Virus record (IMG/VR): IMGVR_UViG_3300027852_000113
Coordinates: 1-36,406 of that record
Strand: one strand, 5' to 3'
Source of the DNA: a virus
DNA length: 36,406 bases
A program made the translations under genes and the position numbers. The notes beneath the pieces are model-generated. The model did not search any database. It was not told where the DNA came from and saw only the letters and a list, made by a program, of their open reading frames with translations. Below, piece after piece: positions 5,375-7,830 of this stretch. How positions within the stretch are numbered: the stretch's first letter is position 1; each line of letters opens with the position of its first letter.

Positions 5375-5402
5375 AAAACCTTCACTTCACAATGAAGGTT
5401 TT
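5375..5402 (+). terminator. Hairpin terminator after the integrase
   Basis: The arms AAAACCTTCA (5375-5384) and TGAAGGTTTT (5393-5402) form a 10-bp perfect stem with an 8-base loop. A on one side and T on the other make it usable in both directions. It ends + strand early transcription. The insertion element begins two bases after the T run, so the T run is part of the target sequence. Confidence 0.7.
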
Positions 5403-5404
5403 GC

Positions 5405-5426
5405 GGGTAGTGTCTCAGTTTGAAAT
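5405..5426 (+). repeat. Left terminal inverted repeat of the insertion element
   Basis: 22 bases, perfectly complementary to 7771-7792. The outer end begins GGGTAGTG. The 6-bp TTTTGC directly to its left is repeated to the right of the other terminus. Confidence 0.9.
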
Positions 5427-5493
5427 CTAGCCTTGATATTCTCGAAGATTGCCGCACTTTCCTGTATGCTTACCGCAAAGCATAGGAGAAACC

Positions 5494-5727
5494 ATGGCTA
5501 AAGGACCAAAGGGGCAAAAGCGCCCCACTGACGTTATCAGCAACGCCGTCAAGGTCATGCGGATAGCGACCGGCGAAGAAGGAGAAATCATCGAAGAAGA
5601 AGACGGTAAGGACCCTGCCGCCAAAGCGTTAGGCGCTAAGGGCGGGAAGGCGCGGGCTGAAAAGCTGACGGCTGAACAGCGGTCGGAGATCGCGAAGAAG
5701 GCAGCTGCGAAACGCTGGGAGAAGTAA
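5494..5727 (+). CDS. Small KGG/KRW-motif protein, element passenger
   Basis: 77 residues from the ATG at 5494, chosen because TAGGAG lies at the right distance; the longer frame from 5449 lacks a ribosome site. It has a basic start (AKGPKGQKRPTDVI), an acidic middle (GEEGEIIEEEDGKD) and a conserved end with LGAKGGKARAEKL and AAAKRWEK. This C-terminal pattern, two short helices with a GG turn and a KRW end, is widespread in small bacterial proteins often labelled histone-like or RNA-binding. Its function is unproven. It lies inside the inverted repeats, so it is cargo. Confidence 0.75.
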   Translation: MAKGPKGQKRPTDVISNAVKVMRIATGEEGEIIEEEDGKDPAAKALGAKGGKARAEKLTAEQRSEIAKKAAAKRWEK

Positions 5728-5992
5728 GGCTACTCAATATCGCCGCGCTTTATCTTGATTTCGATTTCATCCGCCACGCCGTAGGACAACTGAAAAGCCA
5801 TCGTCATTAAATTCAACCAAGTAATCCTCTCGGTACTTTCCCATGGACCTTTTGCCGGAAGCTTTGGTGCCAAGCGACTGGTCGCCTGAGCGATGACCCG
5901 AGAACAAGGCTGCTACGCAATCTGTTAGGAAACGCGCAGCAGCCTCTAGGTCGCAGTACATGGCGGCTGGCTTTCGGGCCAGTCGAACAAAT

Positions 5993-6068
5993 ACGCTCGT
6001 AGCTCAGTGGATAGAGCAGGTGCCTACTAAGTTCCGTGTCGTCGGTTCGAATCCGATCGAGCGTTCCA
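5993..6068 (+). tRNA. tRNA-like gene, anticodon position ACT, damaged anticodon stem
   Basis: 76 bases fold as a standard tRNA: 7-bp acceptor ACGCTCG/CGAGCGT, T8 A9, D stem GCTC/GAGC with a GG-containing loop, T stem GTCGG/CCGAT with loop TTCGAAT, and an encoded CCA. The anticodon loop CTACTAA places ACT at 34-36. The anticodon stem GGTGC/GTTCC has a T-T mismatch and a G-T pair. An ACU anticodon would read the Ser codon AGU, yet the short variable region excludes a normal tRNA-Ser. The body resembles tRNA-Arg(UCU), from which it may derive. It may be a degenerate copy or a repurposed tRNA. It lies within the insertion element. Confidence 0.65.
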
Positions 6069-6078
6069 TCCAAATCGC

Positions 6079-6115
6079 AACGGCAGTCATTGTTTAACAT
6101 GATGACTGCCGTTTG
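6079..6115 (+). terminator. Hairpin following the tRNA-like gene
   Basis: The 12-bp perfect stem AACGGCAGTCAT (6079-6090) and ATGACTGCCGTT (6102-6113) has an 11-base loop and a weak T tract (GTTTGTG). Placed 10 bases after the CCA, it looks like the 3' terminator of a tRNA transcription unit. It would also shield the transposase from read-through. Confidence 0.6.
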
Positions 6116-6144
6116 TGAATCCCGTATTAATGTGATTCCAATGC

Positions 6145-6173
6145 TTGACGATAAGCATAAAAGTTCATATATT
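6145..6173 (+). promoter_or_regulatory. Sigma70-type promoter for the transposase
   Basis: TTGACG (6145-6150) and TATATT (6168-6173) are separated by 17 bases, near-consensus -35 and -10 boxes. The predicted transcription start, about 7 bases downstream, coincides with the transposase ATG at 6180, implying a leaderless or nearly leaderless mRNA. Confidence 0.65.
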
Positions 6174-6179
6174 AAGGGC

Positions 6180-7067
6180 ATGAACAAGCTGCCCCTTAAG
6201 ACCCGCACCCAAATCCTCCACATGCTCTGTGAAGGCAATTCCATGCGGTCGATCTCTCGCATGGCGGACGTGTCGATAAACACGGTTTCCAAGCTATTGG
6301 TCGATGCGGGCAAGGCATGTGCGGCCTACCACGACGATGCGGTTCGGGGCGTCACGGCCTCTCGTATCCAGTGTGACGAGATTTGGTCCTTCACCTATGC
6401 CAAGCAGAAGAACGTCAAGACCGCGAAAGCTGCACCGGGTGGGGCTGGCGACACCTGGACTTGGACCGCGTTAGACGCTGACAGTAAATTGATTATCTCT
6501 TGGCTGGTTGGCGGGCGGGACAGCGAATATGCAATGGCCTTTATGGACGATCTGCGGGACCGCCTAGCCAATCGGGTGCAACTCACAACGGACGGCCACA
6601 GGGCTTATTTGGAAGCTGTTGAAGGCGCTTTTGGTGGAGACATTGACTATGCTCAGATCATCAAAATTTATGGCAGTTCACCAGAAAGCGCGAAGGGCCG
6701 TTATTCTCCAGCCGATTGCACTGGTATCCGCAAGAACCGGGTAGAAGGCAATCCAGACGTTGACCACGTAAGCACATCACACGTTGAACGCCAGAACCTC
6801 ACAATGCGGATGCACATGCGCCGGTTTACCCGGCTGACTAATGGCTTCTCCAAGAAATTCGAAAACCACATGCACATGGTTGCGCTCTACACAGTGTTCT
6901 ACAATTTCTGCAAGGTGCATAAGACACTTCGCGTCACTCCTGCCATGGAAGCAGGGCTTTGTGACACGGTTCAGGACTTTGAGTGGATTTGCGGACTGAT
7001 CGACGCTCGGGCACCCAAGCCCGGTCGGCCAAAGACCTATGCAAAGAAGATCAAAGCCTTAAAATGA
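6180..7067 (+). CDS. IS1-family DDE transposase
   Basis: 295 residues from the ATG at 6180. The frame is open further upstream, but that would run into the tRNA-like gene and the promoter. An N-terminal helix-turn-helix (about 18-45, EGNSMRSISRMADVSINTVS) precedes the catalytic domain. Candidate acidic residues are D66 in CDEIWSF, D138 in TTDGH and E203 in HVERQN. The HVERQNLTMR...RLTNGFSKK stretch is characteristic of IS1 InsB-like catalytic regions. It would cut and join the 22-bp inverted repeats bounding the element. A strong hairpin follows four bases after the stop. Confidence 0.85.
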   Translation: MNKLPLKTRTQILHMLCEGNSMRSISRMADVSINTVSKLLVDAGKACAAYHDDAVRGVTASRIQCDEIWSFTYAKQKNVKTAKAAPGGAGDTWTWTALDADSKLIISWLVGGRDSEYAMAFMDDLRDRLANRVQLTTDGHRAYLEAVEGAFGGDIDYAQIIKIYGSSPESAKGRYSPADCTGIRKNRVEGNPDVDHVSTSHVERQNLTMRMHMRRFTRLTNGFSKKFENHMHMVALYTVFYNFCKVHKTLRVTPAMEAGLCDTVQDFEWICGLIDARAPKPGRPKTYAKKIKALK

Positions 7068-7146
7068 CTGACCCCGGGAGCATGCTAAGCAGAGGCCGAC
7101 CCGGGGTATACGAGGCGTAAGATAGTCATCTATCGGTAAAGGGCAA
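7068..7146 (+). ncRNA. Structured segment upstream of the Abi gene, candidate regulatory RNA
   Basis: The 79-base gap between transposase and Abi contains a strong stem ACCCCGGG (7071-7078) / CCCGGGGT (7100-7107) enclosing the palindrome AGCATGCT. A second hairpin GATAG-TCAT-CTATC (7121-7134) ends 12 bases before the GTG start. It could be merely the transposase terminator, but there is no T run. A structured RNA (abiF RNA motif) has been reported upstream of Abi_2-type genes by comparative genomics; whether this matches is untested. Confidence 0.35.
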
Positions 7147-7770
7147 GTGAACAAGTTGAGAACTGACGCAATAAACACTTCGCTGGAACGAACCCTTACC
7201 CGTGACCGCCTAAGCAAATATTTGGCTGAAACTGGCGGGAATCTTGACGAAGCACTCACACTTTATGAGCAAAATACTCGCCTTTCCGAAGCATTATATT
7301 CGCCGCTCCAAAGTATGGAAATATGCTTTCGGAATACCATTAACCACAATATGCAGGTGGTATATGGGGAAGATTGGCTACGTTCCGGCGCGCCGCCGCT
7401 AGGCGTATCAGAGACTGAAAAGATATCAGAAGCTTGGGCAGAACTAAGAGCCCCGACCCATAGCCAGCTTGTGGCCACGTTGAAGTTCTCCTTCTGGGTT
7501 GGGCTGGTCGCCCCAAAATATGATGGAACACTTTGGCGGCATTCAATTTACAAAGGGTTTTCAGTTGGTGCGGGTAAGAAACGAAGAGATGTTCACGGGA
7601 GATTCAATGCTTTGCGACGGTTCCGAAACCGCGTTGCGCACCATGAGCCCGTTTACATAAAGGCAGAACAAATGCATCGAGAAACTATAGAGGCGATAGG
7701 TTGGATGTGCCGCGATACCCAGATTTGGGCCGAAAGCCAAAGTAACTTTGCAGACGTCTACCGGCCTTGA
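7147..7770 (+). CDS. Abi_2-family (AbiD/AbiF-like) abortive-infection protein with two HEPN motifs
   Basis: 207 residues, mostly helical. Two RN-x3-H motifs are visible: R62-N-T-I-N-H67 after MEICFRN, and R160-N-R-V-A-H165 in RRFRNRVAHHEPV. This pair is typical of Abi_2 proteins, which belong to the HEPN superfamily of RNases and act in abortive phage defence. The start is a GTG with only a weak ribosome site (AAAGGGC), preceded by a hairpin-rich leader that may control it. The stop codon abuts the right inverted repeat, so the gene is element cargo. No partner toxin or antitoxin protein is adjacent. Confidence 0.75.
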   Translation: MNKLRTDAINTSLERTLTRDRLSKYLAETGGNLDEALTLYEQNTRLSEALYSPLQSMEICFRNTINHNMQVVYGEDWLRSGAPPLGVSETEKISEAWAELRAPTHSQLVATLKFSFWVGLVAPKYDGTLWRHSIYKGFSVGAGKKRRDVHGRFNALRRFRNRVAHHEPVYIKAEQMHRETIEAIGWMCRDTQIWAESQSNFADVYRP

Positions 7771-7792
7771 ATTTCAAACTGAGACACTACCC
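7771..7792 (-). repeat. Right terminal inverted repeat of the insertion element
   Basis: Perfect reverse complement of 5405-5426, ending CACTACCC. It is followed by TTTTGC (7793-7798), the same hexamer that precedes the left repeat. Confidence 0.9.
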
Positions 7793-7830
7793 TTTTGCGG
7801 TATTCGGTAGCAAACTCACCCACCGAAACC

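Follow-up and report, generated by a model that had tools for sequence, protein, structure and literature searches.

tRNAs that misread the code are, as a rule, either mutants from the laboratory or components of recoded phages. In bacteria, natural tRNAs with anticodons mismatched to their identity elements have been described as allo-tRNAs (Mukai and colleagues 2017, reviewed in PMC7609411); they include both nonsense and missense readings, some are able to insert serine or alanine, and one allo-tRNA pseudogene overlaps a transposon-related gene (PMC7609411). Another relevant system is the AbiF RNA antitoxin of C. difficile, in which Abi_2/AbiF proteins are neutralised by RNA partners (PMC12373285). 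In our literature search, no paper was found on transposon-borne tRNAs of the kind presented here. The decoding end of the tRNA that we describe is at odds with its body, and this recurs in relatives, which suggests that mobile DNA may use misreading tRNAs.

A complete IS1-like transposon within a temperate phage

The window, i.e., the whole stretch of DNA that was analysed (36,406 bases), is a record of a temperate phage with integrase, NinB, terminase, head, tail and endolysin genes. It contains a complete IS1-like transposon (5405-7792), and the tRNA gene lies inside this element, 187 nt 5' of the transposase gene and between two hairpins. The element and its borders comprise:

5399-5404, no strand: target duplication TTTTGC, left copy
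5405-5426, plus strand: left terminal inverted repeat, 22 bp, perfect
5494-5727, plus strand: ORF1, a small basic protein conserved in the family ('histone H1' annotation in one plasmid copy)
6180-7067, plus strand: IS1-like DDE transposase (Pfam DDE_Tnp_IS1, 29.7 bits, cutoff 24.1)
7147-7770, plus strand: Abi_2/HEPN-type protein, cargo (also matches PADLOC PD-T4-5 and AbiD)
7771-7792, minus strand: right terminal inverted repeat, 22 bp, perfect
7793-7798, no strand: target duplication TTTTGC, right copy

The perfect ends with TTTTGC on both sides bear out the first-pass annotation, which had placed the tRNA in a transposon. We use the term 'IS1-like' because the window transposase scores 67.9 bits with the NCBIfam IS1 model, i.e., below its cut-off of 100; in databases, plasmid relatives are annotated as 'IS1 family transposase'. 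The position of the tRNA between the transposon ends rules it out as the attachment site of the phage integrase (4097-5200). A homologue of the small minus-strand ORF at 5767-5961 was sought and none was found. The Abi_2-type gene (7147-7770) is possibly a phage defence gene brought into the phage by the transposon, and the 79-nt gap before it contains an inverted repeat.

The tRNA joins an arginine-type body to an anticodon for a serine codon

The tRNA gene and its anticodon arm are located as follows:

5993-6068, plus strand: tRNA gene, class I Arg-type body, anticodon ACU (6026-6028), CCA encoded, U73
6019-6035, plus strand: anticodon arm GGTGCCTACTAAGTTCC, with U29·U41 and G30·U40, common to the relatives L592 and L590 treated below

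ARAGORN finds a single tRNA in the window (5993-6068, plus strand, anticodon ACT), and RF00005, which scores 54.6 bits at 5993-6065 (gathering score 29, E 3e-9), is the sole RNA family detected in the Rfam scan of the window. The tRNA-like gene with anticodon ACU that had been read from the letters alone is thus confirmed by both programs, and the covariance score that had been proposed as a check lies above the gathering score. The acceptor, D and T arms and the CCA had been described as intact, and they are, with 7/7, 4/4 and 5/5 pairs and the CCA encoded. The anticodon loop, CUACUAA, has the normal 7 nt; its stem consists of G27-C43, G28-C42, a U29·U41 mismatch, a G30·U40 wobble and C31-G39. 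This stem, previously called broken, does contain one mismatch and one wobble, and is weakened rather than destroyed. By itself it is weak evidence, since at least one anticodon-stem mismatch is present in 31 of 256 ordinary class I tRNAs from the collected DNA.

The variable loop of 5 nt lacks the long variable arm of tRNA-Ser; therefore, the body is not that of tRNA-Ser, in agreement with the earlier view that this is no ordinary serine tRNA. A20, C35 and U36 are established ArgRS identity positions, and all three are present in the window tRNA and in those of L590, L592 and L256, which makes arginine charging plausible for all four. Among ordinary tRNAs, the D arm of the window tRNA is found in 9 Arg and 1 Met tRNAs. 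Position 73, which is A or G in tRNA-Arg, is U in the window and G in L590 and L592. U73 is atypical for Arg as well as for Ser tRNAs, so the earlier statement that only the anticodon arm is altered was inexact, and this base counts against the Arg reading. What stands out in this gene is that an Arg-type body (A20, C35, U36 and a short variable loop) bears an anticodon for the Ser codon AGU. Class II Ser-type tRNAs of phages with the anticodon ACU (L177:3934-4020 and L471:6467-6555) show A34 at this anticodon elsewhere, with a matching body.

Mismatched tRNAs recur as cargo of the transposon family

Transposase searches yielded 209 distinct copies of the family, 153 of them with an inverted-repeat pair. 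These bounded elements have a mean length of 3.08 kb (470,628 bases/153), and an exact 6-bp target duplication is found in 122 of the 153. The family is mostly alphaproteobacterial, with a few copies in metagenome bins of other phyla, and its usual layout is ORF1, at least one cargo gene, the transposase and sometimes further cargo (RES/Xre-type or Abi_2). A large cargo protein of about 230-330 aa is common (L059:2952-3950, L282:405-1105), with DUF5343 in L282 and no Pfam match in L059.

A tRNA-like gene occupies the same slot in seven copies (the window, L070, L256, L282, L125, L354 and L368), on the transposase strand and 160 to 255 nt before the transposase start. The six besides the window were found by transposase alone, without bias, among the 209, while L559 (copies L563 and L575) and L592 are extra same-slot cases obtained with slot- or arm-targeted patterns. 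Both element ends were identified for the window, L070, L256 (stored in reverse orientation) and L354, and for L125 with more diverged repeats; L368 has the left end only, and L282 is cut by the contig end. At a second site, about 1.2 kb upstream and on the opposite strand, five copies carry Ser-type tRNAs with UUA or CUA anticodons, and L194/L224 represents one further second-site Ser-body suppressor. tRNAs beyond the element ends (e.g., L026, L091, L240, L252) were left out. The tRNA cargo is:

window and L592, same slot: ACU anticodon on an Arg body
L256, same slot: GCU anticodon on an Arg body
L070, same slot: CGU anticodon on an Arg-like body
L354 and L559, same slot: UUA anticodon on a Leu body
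L368, same slot: AGU anticodon on a Glu body, with C33
L282, same slot: shortened, broken anticodon loop on a Gly body
L125:3841-3942, 5' of the transposase: tRNA with a 43-nt hairpin where the anticodon arm would be; the acceptor, D and T arms are intact
L011:2830-2928, minus strand: Ser-type suppressor tRNA, UUA, between ORF1 and the next gene
L020:2813-2903, minus strand: Ser-type suppressor tRNA, CUA, between ORF1 and the next gene
L031:2789-2884, minus strand: Ser-type suppressor tRNA, UUA, between ORF1 and the next gene
L043:2807-2904, minus strand: Ser-type suppressor tRNA, UUA, between ORF1 and the next gene
L059:2658-2747, minus strand: Ser-type suppressor tRNA, UUA, between ORF1 and the next gene

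Every element-borne tRNA has either an anticodon/body mismatch or a broken anticodon loop, and the anticodon arms of L282 and L125 are probably unable to decode. Captured ordinary tRNAs are absent within the elements, and none of the 33 tRNAs outside the inverted repeats in these loci has a non-canonical anticodon (anticodons alone were compared). The suppressor-arm pattern has matches in 2 of 385 alphaproteobacterial genomes, both being copies of the element; most viral matches belong to the tRNA complements of recoded phages and were excluded. Whether other copies of the element hold tRNA-like genes, as had been asked, can thus be answered positively, with six unbiased same-slot and five second-site cases among 209. 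By our estimate, random landing of tRNAs would give about 5% within 300 nt upstream on the transposase strand, and six copies besides the window are observed there. On the transposase tree, 7 changes are needed for the seven same-slot copies and 5 for the five second-site copies; the forks of this tree are weakly supported, and the tRNA cargo may have had a single origin with many losses.

Several further loci were recorded in the course of this census. The viral contigs L182, L195 and L200 have single Leu-type UUA tRNAs and may be further mobile modules; the UUA tRNAs of L195 and L200 adjoin small winged-helix-like genes, and that of L182 adjoins a homologue of the large cargo protein. Members of the family are also inserted at or inside tRNA genes (L091:5855-5926 and L179; tRNA-Trp, a CUA suppressor tRNA). 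Beside the AGU tRNA of L368, an antisense pair (L368:2268-3327) encodes an Xre-like regulator and an uncharacterised, HigB-like-looking protein with no Pfam match, a possible toxin-antitoxin cargo.

Hairpins flank the tRNA upstream of a probably leaderless transposase gene

The region around the tRNA contains the following elements:

5908-5944, plus strand: second upstream hairpin GGCTGCT...AGCAGCC, tentative, with a counterpart in L070
5964-5985, plus strand: upstream hairpin of 9 bp, adjoining the tRNA, with a counterpart in L070 and most other same-slot copies
6075-6118, plus strand: long hairpin 3' of the tRNA, about 19 bp, probably acting as terminator or insulator
6145-6173, plus strand: transposase promoter TTGACG-N17-TATATT, conserved in relatives, ATG directly after

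A hairpin of 12 bp had been reported after the tRNA; it is present and is longer, about 19 bp. The terminator scan made no call at 6075-6118 because this hairpin has no T-run. Besides it, a second hairpin was found on the 5' side (5964-5985), and the minimum free energy fold of 5955-6125 is hairpin-cloverleaf-hairpin, with a z of -3.4 and none of 200 shuffles equally stable. An upstream hairpin with a z below -1.5 is present in 7 of the 8 same-slot copies, versus 21% of 178 control elements. In most transposon copies the promoter TTGAC-N17-TATATT abuts the start codon, and since it leads directly into this codon, the transposase mRNA is probably leaderless, likely throughout the family.

The anticodon arm appears to be the part that is kept

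Two relatives of the window tRNA were compared with it. L590, an unrelated phage without the transposase, was found by a pattern with eight anticodon-arm positions left open, seven of which match the window; a second pattern led to L592, a second transposon, whose transposase is 53% identical and which also has its tRNA in this slot. The arm GGU[G/C]CCUACUAAGUUCC, mismatches included, is common to the window, L592 and L590 (search form GGTSCCTACTAAGTTCC). Among these three, the anticodon arm is identical at 16/17, 16/17 and 17/17 positions, numbers that are to be read knowing that the patterns fixed part or all of the arm, while identity is 6-10/14 in the acceptor and 12-15/17 in the T arm. 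Two-sided changes affect 6 pairs in the acceptor and T stems and none in the anticodon stem, a count of 6 being reached by 1 of 500 shuffles, and the anticodon-stem mismatch is kept in all three sequences. Judged from these three sequences, the anticodon arm with its internal loop would be the part that is kept, which argues both against decay and against a mimic that does without its anticodon.

For a tRNA mimic, the first-pass annotation had predicted compensatory changes in the body together with drift of the anticodon arm. The compensation is indeed seen in the acceptor and T stems, but the arm does not drift, being identical at 16-17 of 17 positions in L592 and L590; the closest relatives thus show the reverse of a kept body with a drifting anticodon arm. 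Nor does the body decay at random, as had been named as the contrary outcome: no intact copy shows such decay, and the variation in the acceptor and T stems is compensatory. A decoy or regulatory RNA is possible. The pair of the window and L070 does resemble the predicted pattern, with identity at 5/17 positions of the anticodon arm and 44/56 of the rest, but the slot may hold different tRNAs in these two copies. In annotated phages and plasmids, ordinary tRNA-Arg relatives alone were present among the matches examined.

Proposed misreading and its alternatives

The explanation that we favour, with doubt slightly outweighing confidence, is a maintained tRNA of arginine identity which misreads the Ser codon AGU and is one of a recurrent transposon cargo of misreading tRNAs. 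It is based on the intact fold, the position inside the element, the reused slot and the anticodon arm conserved amid compensated changes. The window tRNA would be transcribed on its own and processed to a CCA-ended tRNA, ArgRS would charge it with arginine, and the charged tRNA would read AGU, perhaps AGC, at low efficiency, with the weakened anticodon stem limiting or shaping the reading of AGU. In this way it could act as a missense suppressor and be a counterpart of the ochre and amber suppressors that sister elements carry, and misreading is the simplest common denominator of the window tRNA and the Ser/Leu suppressors of these elements. The element might gain by harming rival phages or the host, by tolerating changed codes or by controlling the expression of its own genes; mild poisoning of, or interference with, host or rival-phage translation is our guess. 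It might also be, and this we put forward as a tentative and rather doubtful proposal, that the transposon family repeatedly took up re-aimed tRNAs in fixed slots (Ser/Leu at stop codons, Arg at Ser codons), which were kept because mistranslation serves the element, e.g., to attack rival phages or to exert control. Among the points against the favoured explanation are these: the conserved stem mismatches might lower decoding and so suit a non-decoding role, and the arms of L282 and L125, as they probably do not decode, are counted against misreading cargo. In the transposases of the window, L592 and L256, no AGU/AGC codon lies at an Arg column, with the exception of one AGC at a K/R column in L592; several lie at conserved Ser columns. 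AGY is thus not used for arginine in these transposases, and no codon reassignment that would benefit the element was found.

Other explanations make no use of decoding. The tRNA body could be a processing and insulation device with an irrelevant anticodon, where RNase P, RNase Z and the flanking hairpins would cut or stop transcripts coming from upstream and the transposase's own promoter and leaderless start alone would be used. The constant slot and strand just 5' of the leaderless transposase, the stable upstream hairpins of the same-slot copies, the origin of the bodies from different tRNAs (Arg, Gly, Leu, Glu) and the disabled anticodon arms of L282 and L125 all speak for such a device; we nevertheless hold it to be unlikely, as it leaves unexplained the conserved ACU anticodon arm, the repeated UUA anticodons and the opposite-strand suppressors 1.2 kb away, and about 95% of elements are without a tRNA. 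Somewhat less probable is an RNA that acts without decoding, its conserved anticodon arm with the internal loop serving as bait or inhibitor of an anticodon-cleaving or -binding enzyme from host, phage or cargo; the unpaired U29, U40 and U41 are conserved in three otherwise diverged tRNAs, toxin cargo is common in the family and RNA antitoxins that neutralise Abi_2/AbiF proteins are known (PMC12373285), but from one same-slot copy to another the anticodon arm varies.

The bait explanation is further weakened by the distribution of Abi_2, which does not co-occur with the tRNA across element copies: L070 and L125 have a tRNA-like gene without an Abi_2 gene, while L044, L049, L060, L080 and L087 have Abi_2 without a tRNA-like gene. 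The same distribution speaks against a partnership of the tRNA with the HEPN protein. The first proposal, a tRNA mimic connected with the HEPN/Abi_2 protein, has in its favour that both genes lie in the same element; with either gene occurring without the other, and an anticodon arm that is conserved and not free, we regard it as very improbable. A type III-like RNA antitoxin would be adjacent to, and co-occur with, the Abi gene, and here the transposase lies between the two; moreover, the RNA antitoxin described for AbiF is not presented as a tRNA (PMC12373285). As to a tRNA-Arg captured from host or phage and now decaying without function, a single copy alone shows few changes, anticodon-stem mismatches are not rare (31/256), and L282 and L125 look damaged. 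Decay, however, would not keep the mismatched arm in the window, L592 and L590 amid compensated changes, nor repeat UUA anticodons in independent elements, and captured ordinary tRNAs are absent; we therefore give it little credence.

Comparison with known systems

The window element resembles the IS1 family in its transposase domain, terminal inverted repeats and target duplication. Its family differs in that ORF1 is nearly always present, usually with other cargo, and the target duplication is of 6 bp, whereas that made by IS1 itself is longer. Phage suppressor tRNAs connected with changed stop codons are likewise stop-reading tRNAs on mobile DNA, and many were matched in our scan; they are found in phage genomes, often among many tRNAs, whereas here single tRNAs reside in a small transposon, and they read stops, while the anticodon of the window tRNA reads a Ser codon. 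The tRNA-Arg (UCU or CCU) of alphaproteobacteria and phages shares A20, C35, U36, the class I body and a similar D arm with the window tRNA, which differs by ACU, the internally looped anticodon stem and U73.

If our favoured explanation of misreading is true, mobile DNA can spread altered decoding between bacteria and phages, with consequences for code drift, competition between phages and elements and new suppressor tRNAs. The nearest idea is that of the allo-tRNAs, which are likewise natural tRNAs with a mismatched anticodon. Their acceptor branch is 8/4 or 9/3 and their identity mostly Ser or Ala (PMC7609411), whereas the window tRNA has 7/5 pairs, is of class I Arg type and resides in a defined transposon, and such defined elements make the question of allo-tRNA purpose testable.
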